Shown: one piece after another, positions 5,390-19,013 of the stretch
How positions within the stretch are numbered: position 1 is the stretch's first letter
Layout of the letters: each line of letters begins with the position of its first letter
NCBI RefSeq assembly: GCF_027789125.1
Contig: NZ_JAQFVF010000027.1
Span: 1-64,000, forward strand
Direction: 5' to 3'
DNA from: Paenibacillus aestuarii
GTDB taxonomy: Bacteria; Bacillota; Bacilli; Paenibacillales; NBRC-103111
Length of the DNA: 64,000 nt
Position numbers and translations under genes: made by a program
The notes under the pieces: generated by a model
The model's input: the letters and a program-made list of their open reading frames with translations, nothing else
What the model was told of the DNA's origin: nothing
Databases searched by the model: none

Positions 5390-6532
5390 TCAGCTGGTCG
5401 TATCTTCAACCCCGCTGTTGTCTTGATCTGCTTTCGGTGCGTCTTCTTTGCGCTGCTTCAGCATCCACAGCGCATATTCCAGTGGCCGTGTAACCGCCTT
5501 CCGGTAAGTCGCTTTTTGGCCGATGCGCTGGAACACTTCGCGGGATGGCTTCGGGTTGACCTCCAGCAGCCAGATCCTGCCTTTGGGGTCTACGGCAATG
5601 TCCATGCCCAGCTCAACCAGTTTGCCGAACCTCGTTTCCAAGAAATTGGCAAGCTTGAAAGCGAAGCTGTTCATTTCTTTCTTGATCGTCTCGATCTTCT
5701 CCGCCGAGGAGAAGCGGTGCGACAGCATTGTGTCCAGCGAGACAGCCGATCCGCCACCATGCAGGTTGGAGGTGATGCTGCGGTGAGGTCCGATCCGGCC
5801 TGCGCAGCCTGTCACTTCCCATTGACCGCTGCCGTTTTTCTGGATCAGCAGGCGGTAATCGTGCACGCGTCCGTCCTTGAGCGTCAAATCAATGCCTTGC
5901 TGCACCACATAGTCAGGGGAGAGTTTCATCGTATGCAGTTTCACGATCAGCTGCTTTTCCGTTGCGCGGTAAGGTGCGATAATCGTGCGCTGCAGGTTTC
6001 GGCCTTGCAACAGAAACAGTTCGCTGCCGATCTGCTCAATCCGCAGAATCCCCCGGCCTCCGGTGCCGTTCTTCGGTTTTACATAGATGAGCTTATACTT
6101 TTTGAGCACCTTCAAAAGCTCTTGCGTTGAACTATAGCGGACGGTATAGGGAATATAGGGGCGTATCGTTTCATTTTCCGATAGGATTTGATGCATATTC
6201 CATTTATTTGCAAGCGGCCTGCTTAGGAAAATCAGGTTATCGTGCTTTTTGCGAAATGCTTGCAGGATGCGGTAGTTCTCGACTGCCTTATAGCGGCAGC
6301 GATCATAAATGACCGGCGGGAGCGTGGTTTGCCTGCGGGTCCATTTTTTTATTTGCGGATCATACGTTAATGTTCGAACGGTCGTATCGCTGGTTATATC
6401 CTGCGGTGTGAAGACTTCGACCTGAACGCCAAGTTTGTTGCCTTCAAGACTCAGCTTTCGGAAAAAAGCAAGCTCCTCCAGCCGAGACTTGCTTAGATAA
6501 ATCGCAAGCACGCCTAGTCGTTGTGGAGCCAA
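5390..6532 (-). CDS. YheC/YheD-family ATP-grasp protein (spore coat associated), copy 5
   Basis: A 380-aa protein of the short, YheC-like form, last in a five-gene array. It has an N-terminal Rossmann-like part with YDRCRYK, the ATP-binding YVKPKNGTGGRGILRI segment, NLHGGGSA, and the metal-binding EVNPKPSR near the C-terminus. In Bacillus this family is annotated as endospore coat-associated, but the reaction and substrate are unknown. By fold it should join a carboxylate to an amine using ATP. It starts at TTG with AAGGTGA overlapping the stop of the previous gene. The hydrophilic tail (QRKEDAPKADQDN) is not shared with the other copies. Confidence 0.88.
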   Translation of the reverse strand: MAPQRLGVLAIYLSKSRLEELAFFRKLSLEGNKLGVQVEVFTPQDITSDTTVRTLTYDPQIKKWTRRQTTLPPVIYDRCRYKAVENYRILQAFRKKHDNLIFLSRPLANKWNMHQILSENETIRPYIPYTVRYSSTQELLKVLKKYKLIYVKPKNGTGGRGILRIEQIGSELFLLQGRNLQRTIIAPYRATEKQLIVKLHTMKLSPDYVVQQGIDLTLKDGRVHDYRLLIQKNGSGQWEVTGCAGRIGPHRSITSNLHGGGSAVSLDTMLSHRFSSAEKIETIKKEMNSFAFKLANFLETRFGKLVELGMDIAVDPKGRIWLLEVNPKPSREVFQRIGQKATYRKAVTRPLEYALWMLKQRKEDAPKADQDNSGVEDTTS

Positions 6533-6538
6533 GCTTCG

Positions 6539-7666
6539 TCACCTTCTTCTCCCGTGATGGATTAAATATTGGCTGTATCCGATAATGCGTTCCAACGATT
6601 TCTTGCGAATCTTCGGCTCATCGAACTTCATCGGCTTGGAGTTGGCTTCGAAGAACCAAATGTTGCCTGTCGTATCGACGCCAAGGTCCATCGACATTTC
6701 TCCGAGCTGGTGACCGGATTGTTGTTCGATCTGGCTAGCCAGGGTGATGGCGGCCTTTCTCGCCTTGCTGATAATATTTTTGGCCCTCTTATTGCCAAAG
6801 GAATGAGTGAGCAGCTTACGCGGTTCCCCAATTGAGCCGCCGCGCGGCACGTGGGTCGTAATGCTGGATTTGCCGGCCAGCCTGGCTCCGATGCCCGATA
6901 CGCTCCATGTGCCCTTGCTCGTCTTCTGAATCAGCGCGCGCAGATCAAAGGCCCGATGGTCGAAGCGGGCGAGCTCGATGCCTTGCTGGGCGATGTACTC
7001 GTTCTTGCCGCGATGAAGAACGAATTCATTCCAGAGCCCGTCGATGGTGGGGTGATGTGTCAAAATCATTTGTTTATTCGCTTGCCGGCTCAACTTGTAA
7101 TCCGTAGATTTGACGTTCGAAGTCAAGCGCTCGATGCGCATGATCCCTTTGCCTGCTTTGCCTCTGACAGGCTTCAGATATAAAAAGGAATGCTTTTTCA
7201 GCATTTGGGTCAAATCCTGGGCAGATTTCAGCTGCCGCGTTTCCGGAATGTAAGGCTTGCTTTCTTTGGAATTGTTCAGCCATTCGAAGAGCGTCCATTT
7301 ATTGAAAAACGACGGATTGAAGAGCTGGACTGCGCCGCTGCGATTGCAAGCCTGAAGTGTTTGCTGGATTTCCGGCCTCATCTCCATCTTGCGGTAGGGG
7401 ATGCGGTTATAAATAACCTGAGGAGAGGGAACGAGTTCCCTGCTCCACTTTTTTTTGTCAAAATCATAGCGATATCCTTGCACATGTGCGCTGGAAAGGC
7501 TGAAATCATTGGTCGTAACGACGTAAACATCGACCCCTAAGCGGTTTCCCGTCTTAATCAAGTCGAGGAAGTTGTTTAAATTGCCGCGGAATACACGTTT
7601 ACTGTCTTTGACTGTTAATATGGCAAGGGCAGGGTTATATCCTCTCTCGTGAAGGGTGAAGCCCAT
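6539..7666 (-). CDS. YheC/YheD-family ATP-grasp protein, copy 4
   Basis: A 375-aa short form with YLKPVRGKAGKGIMRI as the ATP-grasp lysine loop, HVPRGGSIG, and FEANSKPM as the metal-binding motif. Its ATG shares one base with the stop of copy 3, so translation is coupled. It has more lysine and asparagine than copies 2 and 5, and its lid region differs (a TYKLSRQANKQMILTHH stretch), so the paralogues have diverged rather than being recent duplicates. Confidence 0.88.
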   Translation of the reverse strand: MGFTLHERGYNPALAILTVKDSKRVFRGNLNNFLDLIKTGNRLGVDVYVVTTNDFSLSSAHVQGYRYDFDKKKWSRELVPSPQVIYNRIPYRKMEMRPEIQQTLQACNRSGAVQLFNPSFFNKWTLFEWLNNSKESKPYIPETRQLKSAQDLTQMLKKHSFLYLKPVRGKAGKGIMRIERLTSNVKSTDYKLSRQANKQMILTHHPTIDGLWNEFVLHRGKNEYIAQQGIELARFDHRAFDLRALIQKTSKGTWSVSGIGARLAGKSSITTHVPRGGSIGEPRKLLTHSFGNKRAKNIISKARKAAITLASQIEQQSGHQLGEMSMDLGVDTTGNIWFFEANSKPMKFDEPKIRKKSLERIIGYSQYLIHHGRRR

Positions 7667-9033
7667 CAGTTATCCCTCCTAGAGCGGAAACGGCTCAAAT
7701 ACAGGCAATGCTCGTAGATGTTGGTGAGCGAAGCGATATCCCCGTCTTTCAGGGAAGGATGCTTGAAAATCGAGCGGCCCGGCTTCGCGTTCGCCTCGAA
7801 CATCCATATTTTTTCGTTCTGGTCGATTCCGATATCGAAACCAAGTTCACCGAGCAGATGGTTGTAGTTGTTCTCGATGCCTTCCGCCAGCTTGACGGCG
7901 GTTTCTTTGGCGCTGGTGAGCACTTGATCGGCGCGGCTGCCATAAATTTGGCGCAGCACCTGCTCCGGTGTCATCAGCTGGCCGCCGGTTCGAATATGCG
8001 TGGTTACACTGCCTTTGCCGGCTTTTTTGGCGCCGATGGCAGCAACCACCCAGTTGTTATTTCCGTTCTTGGTCATATGGAAGCGGAAATCGATCGGACA
8101 GCTGTCAATCTCAATTAAGCGGATCCCCTGCTGAGCGACGTAGTTCGATAATCTGCCGCGGCCTGTGCCGAGCATGCGCATCAGCCCTTCGAACTTGGCA
8201 TAGCGGATGAGCACGTTTTTGCCGGATTTGCGGTAGCGGACGAAATATCCTTTCTTCGGGTTGTACGTGACACGGTAAATGCCGATACCCAAGCTGCCGG
8301 CTGTCGGTTTTAAGTAAATGAACTTGTGCTTATCGAGCATTTCCTTGATCTGTTCAGCAGACGGGTTGATGCGCGATTCCGGAACAAAGCGGAACGCATC
8401 GTCACCGTCAAGCATTTTGTACACATCCCATTTATCAAAAAAGCTCCAGTTAAACAGCGGGACGCCGCGGCGCACAAAACGCTCTTTAAAGCCTTCAATT
8501 CCGGCTGTTTTCTCCGCTTTGCGGCTGGATAGTCGGTTGTAGACGACATCCGGCAGAGGGAACGTCTTGCGGGCCCAGCCGCCGCCGCTTTTGGGAACGA
8601 TGCCGTTGACGGTTTCTTGCGCCCAGTTCACATCTCTAGGGCTAAAGGCAAATTGAAACGATTTGCCGGAGCCAGTCGTCAAAATCTGCCGGATAAATCC
8701 CGTTTTAGAGCCGAATGGTGAGGTGCTGCTGGCCGTGATATTCGTTAATACGCCGATCAACGGGCCTAGTCGGAGCTCCTTGCTGCTGTTGCTCGCTGCC
8801 AGAACATTGCCGACTCTTGGAATGCGCAGCGTGCTCAGGAGCGAAAGCGGAATGTACAGATGCTGGCCGCTCTTTTTGATCAGACGTAGCGGAAGAGTGG
8901 CTGATTTGCTGCCGACCTTTACGGTAATCGATTTGGTTCCGGTTAACCGCAAAGCTTTGACGAGTTCACTTGTTAAGTAGACCGATTTATCTGTTCTTTG
9001 TACGGCGTGGAGCATGCACGTTGTCAAACTCAT
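7666..9033 (-). CDS. YheC/YheD-family ATP-grasp protein, copy 3 (long, YheD-like)
   Basis: A 455-aa long form. About 100 extra N-terminal residues form a basic, beta-rich domain (ITVKVGSKSATLPLRL) before the GPLIGVLTN start of the shared core. The core has YLKPTAGSLGIGIYRV, HIRTGGQL and FEANAKPGRS. The length matches what I recall for B. subtilis YheD, while the short copies match YheC. AGGAGGGTAACCTA precedes the ATG. An 80-bp gap with a hairpin separates it from copy 2, the only sizeable gap in the array. Confidence 0.88.
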   Translation of the reverse strand: MSLTTCMLHAVQRTDKSVYLTSELVKALRLTGTKSITVKVGSKSATLPLRLIKKSGQHLYIPLSLLSTLRIPRVGNVLAASNSSKELRLGPLIGVLTNITASSTSPFGSKTGFIRQILTTGSGKSFQFAFSPRDVNWAQETVNGIVPKSGGGWARKTFPLPDVVYNRLSSRKAEKTAGIEGFKERFVRRGVPLFNWSFFDKWDVYKMLDGDDAFRFVPESRINPSAEQIKEMLDKHKFIYLKPTAGSLGIGIYRVTYNPKKGYFVRYRKSGKNVLIRYAKFEGLMRMLGTGRGRLSNYVAQQGIRLIEIDSCPIDFRFHMTKNGNNNWVVAAIGAKKAGKGSVTTHIRTGGQLMTPEQVLRQIYGSRADQVLTSAKETAVKLAEGIENNYNHLLGELGFDIGIDQNEKIWMFEANAKPGRSIFKHPSLKDGDIASLTNIYEHCLYLSRFRSRRDN

Positions 9034-9081
9034 TAGGTTACCCTCCTAAACTTGTTACCCTATGGGAAGCCCGCGCCAAAG

Positions 9082-9103
9082 CAGGCAGACTTGAATCTGC
9101 CTG
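9082..9103 (-). promoter_or_regulatory. Hairpin in the gap between copies 2 and 3
   Basis: An 8-bp perfect stem, CAGGCAGA with TCTGCCTG, and a 6-base loop, lying on the minus-strand transcript between two coding regions. Only three T residues follow, so partial termination or mRNA processing is more likely than a full stop. Confidence 0.45.
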
Positions 9104-9113
9104 GTTCGGGCAG

Positions 9114-10244
9114 CTATGAGCCCAGTTTTTTGTGTAATAAAAATCCGGCATAACGGATCGGATTGGCGATGGCTTGCTGACGCGCCTCTTCATTGCGCAT
9201 GCGTGCAAATATCGTTCGCCCCGGTTTGGAATTTACTTCCAGAATCCATATGGAGCCTTGGATATCAATCCCGATATCGATGCCCAGCTCCGCCAACCGT
9301 CCGTGGTACTTCTCCAGCAGCGGCGGGATCCGGCTTGAGAGCTCAGTGAGAGCAGCGATCAGTTCTGCAGCTTTCGCCGCGCCAAACTGCCGCTCCAGGA
9401 AGGAGGAGACTTCTTCCGCACTGCCGCCGCCATGCAAATTGGAGGTGACACTGCCAGGCATGCCGGTGCGGACAGCCATGCCAGTCGTTGCCCATAGTCC
9501 GCGTTCGTTCTTTTGCACGAGGGAGCGAACATCGTACACCGTCCCTTCCCGGGACAGCAGAGATAGGTACTGCTGCATTAAATAAGGTCTGCTGCCGATG
9601 AAGCTGCGAAGCCATTGCCAGCAGGCTTCGAATTGCTTGAACTGGCAGTGGACCGGCAAGTTTCGGGCGCTGCGGCCGTGCACTGTGAACAGCTCCCCTT
9701 GATCCGGGGAGACCTCTCTGTGCAGATGCAGAGCGCCTTTGCCTTGACTGCCGCCTTGCGGCTTGAGAAAGACGTCCTGGTGCTGGTTCAGCCAGCTCCG
9801 TAAGTCGTGCTCGCTGTTTAGCATCCTGGTTTCCGGCAAATAGGGGCTTAAGGCGCCATCCCGCTGCAGCATCCGATGCACTTCCAGCTTGCTGCCCAGT
9901 CCGTAGCCGAGAAAACGAATGTCAGGCCGCTCCCGCAGTCTGCTGACATGCTCACGATACATGCGGTAACTCACCTTGCTGCTGAAAAAAGAGCGGTCAT
10001 AAATAAGCTGCGGCAGCGGATAGATGCGTGTGACCCATTCTTGGCGCTTGGGAATATACGTATGCCCTGTTACCGTATGTTGCTGCCAATCAATTCGATT
10101 GGGCGAGAACACGAACACATCGAGATTCTCTTGCTGACCCAGAATAATTAGGCGTTCATAAAACGATGCATTCGCAAACGGAAGCTTGCCATGCAATTCT
10201 GTCACCATGATGCCAAGTAACGGCCATGCCCTGTTCCGCTGCAT
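9114..10244 (-). CDS. YheC/YheD-family ATP-grasp protein, copy 2
   Basis: A 376-aa short form with FLKPQGGSQGKGALHL, NLHGGGSAEE and EVNSKPGRT. The start ATG lies 9 bases after the stop of copy 1, and the ribosome binding site GAGGTGA overlaps that stop. The family assignment is secure from the two nucleotide- and metal-binding motifs and from the YDRSFF motif of the N-terminal domain. The substrate is unknown. Confidence 0.88.
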   Translation of the reverse strand: MQRNRAWPLLGIMVTELHGKLPFANASFYERLIILGQQENLDVFVFSPNRIDWQQHTVTGHTYIPKRQEWVTRIYPLPQLIYDRSFFSSKVSYRMYREHVSRLRERPDIRFLGYGLGSKLEVHRMLQRDGALSPYLPETRMLNSEHDLRSWLNQHQDVFLKPQGGSQGKGALHLHREVSPDQGELFTVHGRSARNLPVHCQFKQFEACWQWLRSFIGSRPYLMQQYLSLLSREGTVYDVRSLVQKNERGLWATTGMAVRTGMPGSVTSNLHGGGSAEEVSSFLERQFGAAKAAELIAALTELSSRIPPLLEKYHGRLAELGIDIGIDIQGSIWILEVNSKPGRTIFARMRNEEARQQAIANPIRYAGFLLHKKLGS

Positions 10245-10253
10245 AAGCTCACC

Positions 10254-11630
10254 TCAAAACTTCGCTAAATATCTGGCATACTGGACGATTTGTTTCACGG
10301 AAGGTCTTATTTTACGCTCATTGTTCAGCGGTGTATTGTCATCTTTGGAAGGTTTGGAATTGACTTCCAGAAGCCAAACCTTCCCAGTATTGTCTACGGC
10401 CAGGTCGATTCCCAGCTCGCCGAAATGATTGTCGATTTGCGTTTCAATGCCTTTGGCGATATCCAGTGCTGACTTGCGCAGCCGTGCTAAGGTTGAGGCG
10501 CGTGACTGTGCCCCTAGCGTCGATTTGCCAAGAGCCTCTTTGACAGGAGCAAGCGTCCCGCCGCGGGCCAGATTCGAGACAAAATGCTGCGATCCCGCGA
10601 TACGACCCACTATCGAAGTGATATCCCACTGGCCTTGCGCCCCTTTCTGCACAAGCGCCCGGAAATCAATCGGACGACCCCCGGTTGTGATCAGGTCGAG
10701 CCCTTGCTGGATCTGGTAGCGCTGGGACTTCAGCTTGCCGGATAACGCCTGAAAAACGGCTGTAAGTGAAGGGAAGACCTGCCTGCGGGCGCCGCTGAGA
10801 TTCGCAAAATGACAAGTAAACGTGTTATCAGGTTCCTTGCGGATCCGAATGATGCCTTTGCCAAGGCTTCCGGTAATCGGTTTAAGGAAAAGTACGGAGT
10901 GGCGGCTGGACATCGATTTTAACATTTGGTAATTTTTTAACAGATAGGACTCAGGCAAGTAACTGTGTAGACTACTGTCTTTACGCAAAGCTTCGAATAC
11001 TTCCGTTTTGTTCAAATATTTTTCATTGAAAACTTCAGCCCCGTATTTGCTCTTCGCATCTTTCATGAATTGTTGAACATTCGTCATGTTTTCGTATTTG
11101 CGGGAAGTCAGCCGGTTGTAGATGACGTTGGGAATCGGGAACGTTTTTTTGCTCCAAGAACCATTGGAATAGGAATAGGCGGATACAGATTGTGCAGAAC
11201 CATGCATTTCACCAGGCGGGAAAAAACAGACCATTGCGCCAAACATGGCGCAGGCATCGCTCAATTCCTTGGCGAAGGCGGTAATGGCGCCAAATGGCCG
11301 ATCCGAAGAGCCGGCGTATACGCGACTGATCATGACGCCAATCAGCGGGCCGATCGACAGCGTGCCTGTTCCCGACTTATAATGGATACAAAGCTGAGCT
11401 CCTTGATGGAGGCCGAGTTTGGATGCAAGTGTAGCGTTTAGGCGCAAACTGTTCTTAATGGAAGCGGGAACAACTCTGACTTCCTGTTTGGCAGAACCAA
11501 ACCGCAGAGTAATAGTATGATTGACTGGGACTTTCCACTTTTTAACAATGGCTTCACTTAGAACAACGGTCCGTTCATCCAAATAGATGCTGGTGCCTTG
11601 AATGGATATCCCGATTTTCGTCCTGGTCAA
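10254..11630 (-). CDS. YheC/YheD-family ATP-grasp protein, copy 1 (long, YheD-like)
   Basis: A 458-aa long form, first gene of the array. It has the extra N-terminal domain (residues 1 to about 100), then GPLIGVMISRVY, FLKPITGSLGKGIIRI, NLARGGTL and EVNSKPSKD. It starts at TTG with GAAGGAG about 9 bases upstream; no ATG start is available close by. The array promoter must lie in the 170-bp gap to yheA. I did not find a convincing sigma-E or sigma-K promoter there, although CATATGAT on the minus strand near 11690 is loosely similar to a sigma-E -10. Confidence 0.88.
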   Translation of the reverse strand: MTRTKIGISIQGTSIYLDERTVVLSEAIVKKWKVPVNHTITLRFGSAKQEVRVVPASIKNSLRLNATLASKLGLHQGAQLCIHYKSGTGTLSIGPLIGVMISRVYAGSSDRPFGAITAFAKELSDACAMFGAMVCFFPPGEMHGSAQSVSAYSYSNGSWSKKTFPIPNVIYNRLTSRKYENMTNVQQFMKDAKSKYGAEVFNEKYLNKTEVFEALRKDSSLHSYLPESYLLKNYQMLKSMSSRHSVLFLKPITGSLGKGIIRIRKEPDNTFTCHFANLSGARRQVFPSLTAVFQALSGKLKSQRYQIQQGLDLITTGGRPIDFRALVQKGAQGQWDITSIVGRIAGSQHFVSNLARGGTLAPVKEALGKSTLGAQSRASTLARLRKSALDIAKGIETQIDNHFGELGIDLAVDNTGKVWLLEVNSKPSKDDNTPLNNERKIRPSVKQIVQYARYLAKF

Positions 11631-11803
11631 TAGCGAACACTCCTTCCAGCATCAAAAATGGCATTGCCGTTTAAGCAAAGTAAACTACTCCATCATATGA
11701 GGACATATATCTAGTGGTGCTTAGGAAACTGGCTGAAAGCACCATGGGAAAAGCCCAACGCGTCAACTGAAGCCAATCCAACAACTTAACGGAGGGATAA
11801 GAC

Positions 11804-12139
11804 ATGAACGTACATGATAAAGCGTATGATCTGGCTAGAGCAATTAAGGAAAGCAGCGAGTACCAAGAGATGCAGCAGCTTCGGATGCAGATCGACAAGG
11901 AGCCGGCCGCGAAAAGCATGATGGACGATTTCAACACCCACCAGGCAGCGTTCCAGCAAAAGATGGCAGCAGGTGAAATGCCGCCACAAGTAGATATGGA
12001 TCGGATGCAGAGCATGTACGAGGCCATGGCGCAAAATCCGAGCATCAAGAAGCTGTTTGATGCGGAGCGCCGGCTGTCGATTGTGCTGGAAGATGTGCAG
12101 CGCATCATCGCTGAGCCGATTGAGAGCATGCTGAAATAG
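11804..12139 (+). CDS. yheA: YlbF/YmcA-family protein YheA
   Basis: A 111-aa, almost wholly helical, charged protein matching the YheA branch of the YlbF/YmcA family, with no catalytic motif. Relatives YlbF and YmcA act in complexes that affect mRNA processing and development; the role of YheA itself is not established. It faces away from the five YheC/YheD genes, and in Bacillus yheA also sits next to yheC/yheD, so synteny supports the name. GGAGGGATAAGAC precedes the ATG and a terminator follows. Confidence 0.88.
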   Translation: MNVHDKAYDLARAIKESSEYQEMQQLRMQIDKEPAAKSMMDDFNTHQAAFQQKMAAGEMPPQVDMDRMQSMYEAMAQNPSIKKLFDAERRLSIVLEDVQRIIAEPIESMLK

Positions 12140-18092: not shown

Positions 18093-18167
18093 CTGTCGGT
18101 GATTTGAGTAATTCCACTTCTGCCTTTTTTCTGCTAAGTGTTACAATCTAGATGTGAGGTGAAGATG

Positions 18168-19013
18168 ATGGAGCTATTATTGAATCGAGTCCTTACCGAA
18201 GTGTTAGCCATTAAACAAGACACGTCAGAAATGAAGATTGATATTTTTGATTTGAAGCAAGATGTATCCGGGTTGAAGCAGGATGTGTCGGTGGTGAAAG
18301 AAGATGTATTCGTCTTGAAGCAGGATGTGTCGGAGCTGAAAGAGGATGTATCCGACTTGAAGCAGGACGTGTCGGAGCTGAAAGAGGATGTATCCGGCTT
18401 GAAGCAGGATGTAACGGTTCTGAAAGAGGATGTATCCGACTTGAAGCAGGACGTGTCGGAGCTGAAAGAGGATGTATCCGGCTTGAAGCAGGATGTGTCG
18501 GAGCTGAAAGAGGATGTATCCGGCTTGAAGCGGGATGTGTCGGAGCTGAAAGGGGATGTATCCAGCTTAAAGCAGGATGTGTCAGTGCTGAAAGAAGATG
18601 TATCAGGCTTGAAGCAGGATGTGTCGGTGCTGAAAGAAGATGTATCAGGCTTGAAGCAGGATGTGTCGGTGCTGAAAGAAGATGTATCAGGCTTGAAGCA
18701 GGATGTATCGGTGCTGAAAGAAGATGTATCAGGCTTGAAGCAGGATGTGTCGGTGCTGAAAGAAGATGTATCAGGCTTGAAGCAGGATGTATCGGTGCTG
18801 AGGGAAGACGTTTCTGATTTAACACAGGATGTGATCGTTTTGGCAAAGAAAGCAGACGATATTTATGCATCTGTCATCCGCCTGGAAGAAGGACAGCCTA
18901 AAGATATTCATGCAATGTTGGAAAATATACACGGCAAGCTCGTCTACAAAGATTCTGAAATAGCCGTATTAAATAAGCGGGTTTTTCATCTGGAAGTTGA
19001 ACTTGAACGTTAA
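18168..19013 (+). CDS. Long heptad-repeat coiled-coil protein
   Basis: About 281 aa. A short N-terminus (MELLLNRVLTEVLAIKQD) is followed by 28 consecutive heptads of the form LKxDVSx, from 18252 to 18839. A final non-repeat helical segment of about 60 residues follows (ILVLAKK... to HLEVELER), itself heptad-like. Leucine and valine occupy the a and d positions, so a long parallel coiled coil is expected. It has no membrane segment or signal peptide and is strongly acidic with alternating KQD/KED. The function is unknown; comparable proteins are annotated only as hypothetical or coiled-coil. The start is ATG 18168 (GAGGTG 6 bases away) or ATG 18165. A terminator follows. Confidence 0.8.
   Translation: MELLLNRVLTEVLAIKQDTSEMKIDIFDLKQDVSGLKQDVSVVKEDVFVLKQDVSELKEDVSDLKQDVSELKEDVSGLKQDVTVLKEDVSDLKQDVSELKEDVSGLKQDVSELKEDVSGLKRDVSELKGDVSSLKQDVSVLKEDVSGLKQDVSVLKEDVSGLKQDVSVLKEDVSGLKQDVSVLKEDVSGLKQDVSVLKEDVSGLKQDVSVLREDVSDLTQDVIVLAKKADDIYASVIRLEEGQPKDIHAMLENIHGKLVYKDSEIAVLNKRVFHLEVELER
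18252..18839 (+). repeat. 21/42-bp tandem repeat encoding heptads
   Basis: There are 28 units of 21 bp, arranged mostly as 42-bp pairs that encode LKQDVSx and LKEDVSx. From 18558 to 18810 the 42-bp pairs are nearly identical in nucleotides as well as amino acids, a sign of recent expansion or gene conversion. Earlier units are more varied. Confidence 0.95.

Follow-up and report, generated by a model that had tools for sequence, protein, structure and literature searches.

Five old YheC/YheD-family ATP-grasp lineages kept as an ordered array in Paenibacillus aestuarii, with a possible role in a spore-coat amide-ligase pathway

Why should a genome keep, side by side, five members of a family that the Bacillus yhe locus represents by two? 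The question is raised by a 64,000-nucleotide stretch of Paenibacillus aestuarii DNA (assembly GCF_027789125.1, contig NZ_JAQFVF010000027.1, positions 1 to 64,000), here called the window, in which five genes of the PF14398 (YheC/YheD) ATP-grasp family lie in a row, head to tail, on the minus strand from 5390 to 11630, as the original prediction had it. YheC and YheD are spore-coat-associated proteins of Bacillus subtilis to which no function has been assigned. From first to last, gene A (10254..11630) is long, with a TTG start and 458 residues (266.7 bits against PF14398); B (9114..10244) is short, with 376 residues (257.2 bits); C (7666..9033) is again long, with 455 residues (265.4 bits), about 90 of them an additional N-terminal part, of a kind that A has too; D (6539..7666) and E (5390..6532) are short, with 375 and 380 residues (269.7 and 273.6 bits), E also starting at TTG. 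Scores of 257-274 bits, some ten times the Pfam cut-off of 26.8, place all five in the YheC/YheD family, with weaker overlapping Pfam matches also above cut-off (ATPgrasp_ST in A and E, GSH-S_ATP in D, TTL in A). The starts had been described as coupled, and this holds for three of the four junctions (A and B 9 nucleotides apart, C and D with one base in common, D and E 6 nucleotides apart) but not for B and C, which are separated by 80 nucleotides.

The age of the array is answered by phylogeny. A bootstrapped tree was built from 94 proteins, which belong to 20 selected Bacilli loci having four or five full genes (reduced loci L118-L122, odd loci L047, L056, L135 and L136, others missing genes and near duplicates were left out). 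In it each array position forms one clade, with ultrafast bootstrap support of 100 throughout and Shimodaira-Hasegawa-like approximate likelihood ratio support of 96-100 (A 99, B 97, C 100, D 99, E 96). Mapping position onto clade takes four label changes, the fewest possible, where shuffles needed 56.8. Wider trees of 205 rows, and of 153 rows including eight loci from outside the class, still recover the five clades, though at more moderate support values, and in them the first genes of L183-L187, L142-L143, L156-L157, L135 and L136 fall outside all five. Pairwise identity among the five window proteins is only 24-32%, yet in distant genera every position retains a clade to itself, which argues that the array did not arise by chance. 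The five genes are old, separately maintained lineages and not a recent duplication; a recent expansion in Paenibacillus is ruled out, since position and clade coincide across the Bacilli loci tested. Ratios of nonsynonymous to synonymous substitution (dN/dS) of 0.014-0.259 came from 14 of 20 comparisons and are rough, dS being saturated: it exceeded 1 in those 14 and gave no value in the remaining six.

How, then, does this set relate to YheC and YheD? The two-gene Bacillus locus L118 holds one B and one C protein in the wider trees, its first gene grouping with B and its second with C, so that B is the orthologue of YheC and C that of YheD; same clade and same locus thus coincide for these two, and not for A, D or E, which are missing from L118. 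The correspondence of locus is marked by a divergent YlbF/YheA-family gene adjoining the array (11804..12139, plus strand; PF06133, 93.9 bits), whose product is 33% identical to a YheA-like protein of L118; further neighbours in L118 were read by eye as what we take to be YheB-, YheE- and SASP-like genes. A-, C- and D-type proteins are also found outside the class (L146, L148, L149), and the lack of A, D and E in L118 is therefore best read as loss. E-type proteins were seen in Paenibacillales and, beyond that order, only at the four loci L127-L130, which come from two other families. The two-gene Bacillus state thus looks like a reduction of a larger set, which reverses the expansion relative to B. 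subtilis implied by the original prediction. Its sorting of the array into two YheD-like and three YheC-like proteins is not supported either, length being no guide: on the trees C alone joins the YheD of L118, and B alone its YheC.

Genes of this family are common in the group. They were matched in all 30 genomes of a search among relatives (this one and 29 others, 6-23 matches per genome; the closest relatives with a name belong, as far as found, to Paenibacillus) and in 110 of 151 Bacilli genomes, with at most 16 candidates scored in each. Most loci read closely were picked for strong matches and not at random; on that footing, 15 of the 19 genomes behind order loci L038-L057 have five YheC/YheD genes, and 17 of the 20 class loci L118-L137 have at least four, L118 having two and L119 and L136 three. 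A mobile or phage origin was rejected: a tblastn search of 50,697 phage records with E gave no match, and neither did viral contigs scanned for a pattern taken from C, a scan that detects close relatives only.

Are all five products likely to be active? Among 176 proteins of the five clades (16 rows of four odd loci were dropped beforehand), the positions numbered in C as R167, K201, K242, Q301, D315, R317, E396, D400 and N415 are conserved at 0.97-1.00 in each clade, E413 is conserved at 0.89-1.00 with D in most other sequences, and 24 columns are invariant across 49 aligned proteins. We take these to be the catalytic and metal-binding positions of the ATP-grasp fold; careful alignment reveals no loss of them, in agreement with the earlier claim that all five keep the ATP-grasp residues, the metal site included, and by sequence all five proteins look catalytically intact. 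Degenerate copies are ruled out by the same conservation in every clade. What differs is a loop at C residues 344-351, mostly fixed within each clade (VSNLARGG in A, TSNLHGGG in B and E, TTHxxxGG in C, TTHVPRGG in D), which by analogy we infer to lie at the active site and whose motif presumably resembles that of RimK and glutathione synthetase (GshB).

The fold points to a broad enzyme group. Predicted models of C and E are confident (mean predicted local distance difference test scores of 89 and 93), and Foldseek places RimK first for both. In structural comparison C, over residues 89-454, best matches RimK (Z 20.7 over 277 residues), glutathione synthetase (19.2), LysX (19.0) and ArgX (18.7), followed by PsnB, TTLL6, TTL and Ddl as well as inositol pyrophosphate kinases; the fold is likewise similar to that of the graspetide macrocyclases PsnB and MdnC. 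To RimK the resemblance thus extends from the best structural match to the conserved ATP-grasp residues, whereas identity to RimK, LysX and ArgX is 17% and the array proteins form a paralogous array in a coat context. Against the NCBIfam models of RimK, MptN and glutathione synthase all scores lie far under the cut-offs: E reaches 22.5 against 143.4 for rimK_fam, where the others are not listed, so that the proteins fall outside the RimK family, although the structural alignment of C leaves a RimK-like mode of action plausible. D is just above the cut-off of Pfam GSH-S_ATP (24.3, the cut-off being 23) over a short stretch, but scores 22.2 against 272 for NCBIfam glutathione synthase and is no member of that equivalog; A scores 27 against 20.1 for the TTL family, but over only 38 residues. 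A phmmer search for a solved homologue of D returned none at E values up to 1, and a profile built from all five matched solved structures over short stretches only, mostly of GshB, TTLL6/7 and TTL.

An indication of the biological setting comes from a second ligase family. PF14395 amidoligases occur in 94 of the 151 Bacilli genomes (one match in 89, two in five), every one of which also has PF14398 and SpoIVA, a co-distribution uncorrected for phylogeny; PF14395 without PF14398 was found in none of the 151, and PF14395 in none of 14 control genomes. The search among relatives gave a single PF14395 match in 29 of 30 genomes, G028 having none. At all 20 class loci read, some of them picked for nearby YheC/YheD genes, cotE lies upstream of PF14395 on the same strand; the interval holds no YheC/YheD gene in 13 (it is within 200 nucleotides in 12), and YheC/YheD genes stand between in seven. 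Here, the PF14395 gene lies on another contig (C20) between cotE and mutS, with genes read as mutS and mutL coming after; at PF14395-free loci readable by motif scan, a mutS motif follows cotE within 1.5 kb in five of eight. Twenty loci from outside the class, fetched for strong YheC/YheD matches and with families confirmed in a sample by Pfam, include PF14395 in 13, cotE in 10 and both in nine, and at L146-L149 the order is cotE, YheC/YheD, PF14395, three YheC/YheD genes and a GNAT gene. Of the 12 arrays L123-L134, 11 also include a GNAT gene, as do four of the 23 order loci (two were checked by Pfam); none was found in the window. The PF14395 proteins conserve their own motifs at many positions in 36 of 36. 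Separately, four genomes carry a second PF14395 match within an open frame of about 870-910 residues, twice the usual length (G109:C210, G115:C1, G127:C20, G177:C19).

Upstream of A, on the minus strand at 11692..11718, lies a conserved element of the AC-N17-CATANNNT type with a TGTCCT box, a candidate mother-cell promoter. The sequence CTCATATGAT recurs upstream of the array in 17 of 19 relatives as well as in the window. The sigma-K-like AC-N17-CATANNNT pattern itself occurs four times in the window against 4.46 expected, which is chance frequency, so that only its conservation upstream of A counts. A regular-expression scan for sigma-E and sigma-K sites upstream of A and cotE gave no match. 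The upstream regions of the array and of cotE have in common a TGTCCT-CATA box, found at 27 sites genome-wide where the reversed control gives 16; this motif was chosen after both regions had been seen and, the statistics being weak, is suggestive only.

Published work on relatives of these proteins supplies part of the rest. The yheC and yheD genes of B. subtilis belong to the sigma-E genes and are stimulated by SpoIIID (PMC517825). YheD depends on SpoIVA for its localisation, interacts with itself and ends up surrounding the spore (PMC7911427, PMC7769602). Linked ATP-grasp, COOH-NH2 and GNAT ligases are described as often ligating in succession (PMC4431377). This suggests a mother-cell set of amide ligases at the coat, and the association with a PF14395 COOH-NH2 ligase, together with the GNAT gene of many arrays, lends independent support to successive amide ligation. 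We therefore propose, from sequence and at a rough probability of one half, that the five genes specify ATP-grasp carboxylate-amine ligases belonging to a single spore-coat pathway which, with cotE and PF14395, would build or decorate a coat component. The mother cell would make the enzymes during sporulation; they would turn a carboxylate into an acyl phosphate and couple this to an amine, in the manner of RimK and glutathione synthetase; at least some would differ in donor or acceptor; and successive amide bonds would build or decorate a coat component in the layer organised by SpoIVA and CotE. Expression during sporulation, ligase activity, successive action and a coat product are what we infer for the array by analogy. 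The earlier idea of a spore amide-ligase assembly is in this respect partly sustained by apparently intact, diverged and maintained enzymes, by a coat context (cotE linkage and SpoIVA co-distribution) and by the PF14395 and GNAT links, its premises of expansion and of YheD/YheC sorting having fallen away.

Several observations weigh against this proposal. Of 115 SpoIVA-positive genomes, 11 have YheC/YheD without PF14395 and 10 have neither, which implies that such a pathway would be dispensable for sporulation. PF14398 extends beyond spore formers: it occurs without a SpoIVA match in five of the 151 Bacilli genomes and is matched in five of the 14 control genomes (B. subtilis and four non-spore-formers, E. 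coli being among the five), over the cut-off in four. In P. aestuarii the array and the cotE-PF14395 pair are on separate contigs, so that their connection is drawn from relatives and co-distribution. A common fold does not by itself establish the reaction, and inositol pyrophosphate kinases match this one at Z of about 16.7. Finally, B and E have the TSNLHGGG loop in common, and there may accordingly be fewer than five specificities, so that the earlier suggestion of a different unit for each enzyme may not hold throughout.

RimK adds amino acids to ribosomal protein S6, and TTLL enzymes add them to tubulin. By the same chemistry, the ligases could add amino acids, perhaps glutamate, to coat proteins, the C-terminal tail of CotE being the first candidate, with no separate polymer. 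This is a serious rival, which we hold to be unlikely: RimK is the best structural match, the profile matches include the polyglutamylase TTLL6, the one non-ligase neighbour that is constant is CotE, and most CotE tails at these loci are strongly acidic, but tails read by eye are acidic in 12 of 16 genomes without PF14395 too, a single tail would hardly call for five or six ligases, and the NCBIfam RimK score falls well short. An acidic CotE tail was accordingly rejected as a mark of the system. Comparison of CotE C-termini at L198-L213 and other loci with CotE open reading frames also turned up, as a pattern confounded by phylogeny, an EE ending in 8 of 11 genomes with PF14398 and without PF14395, in none of five with neither, and in 1 of 35 CotE frames of other loci.

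Two further readings depart from a modified or polymeric coat. ATP-grasp enzymes of this fold group make dipeptides, glutathione and similar compounds, and the product could be a soluble small molecule, either a peptide or a modified amino acid, that the spore stores internally or on its surface as a protectant or germination modulator; we judge this distinctly improbable, given that both cotE linkage and the position of B. subtilis YheD (PMC7911427) point to the coat. The proteins might instead be mainly structural, YheD polymerising round the spore with a retained ATP-grasp fold and incidental catalysis. That we regard as very improbable indeed, in view of the conserved catalytic and metal-binding positions in all five clades and the linkage to a second, unrelated ligase family with conserved motifs of its own.

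Against known systems, the array shares family and locus with the Bacillus yheA/yheC-yheD region, with the YlbF/YheA-family gene adjoining, and differs from it in having five genes for two; PF14395 was found neither in the L118 genome (G096) nor in the B. subtilis control. Like the linked peptide-ligase clusters of ATP-grasp, COOH-NH2 ligase and GNAT genes that PMC4431377 describes in outline, the system brings unrelated amide-forming folds into one neighbourhood, for which successive action is proposed there; it differs from them, so described, in that CotE is the constant neighbour of PF14395, that four to five positional ATP-grasp orthologues recur across Bacilli, and that PF14395 is confined to SpoIVA-positive genomes among the Bacilli sampled. 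A literature search whose coverage left out most subscription papers yielded no account of the five-lineage array or of its link to cotE and PF14395. Iyer and co-workers in 2009 are said to have treated these families together, and may already predict a link between YheC/YheD and COOH-NH2 ligases.

Other observations concern the family and the window at large. The genome holds 18 PF14398 matches, the 13 outside the array (L058-L068) including several short ones of about 243-295 residues; some of the 13, at L060, L062, L064 and L065, have glycosyltransferase, polysaccharide-synthesis or PGA_cap genes in their vicinity. In L084 (10387-11672) and L122 (7289-8388), array position B is occupied by two open reading frames in place of one gene, through decay or assembly error. 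Outside the class, L138, L139 and L141 have single open reading frames of 911-935 residues with two PF14398 stretches each, that is, two fused ATP-grasp domains, and L152 has 11 YheC/YheD genes in one stretch with a Mur-ligase-like gene among them. Elsewhere in the window, 13 tandem copies of a 42-base unit (18259-18808, 91% matches) lie within an open reading frame on the plus strand (18138-19013) and encode a repetitive, coiled-coil-like LKxDVSxLKxDV product.

In a wider perspective, we tentatively suggest that many spore-forming Bacillota make an undescribed amide-linked coat polymer or peptide decoration by means of a CotE-linked ATP-grasp set and PF14395. Such a component would have escaped notice because B. 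subtilis, the model organism, retains just two of the enzymes; if the suggestion is true, the coats of many spore formers hold something that work on B. subtilis as the model cannot reveal. The clade-specific loops offer a direct handle on substrate specificity, and viewing YheC and YheD as the remnant of a larger ordered ligase set, associated with CotE and a second amidoligase, would turn two proteins of unknown function into a matter of testable chemistry.

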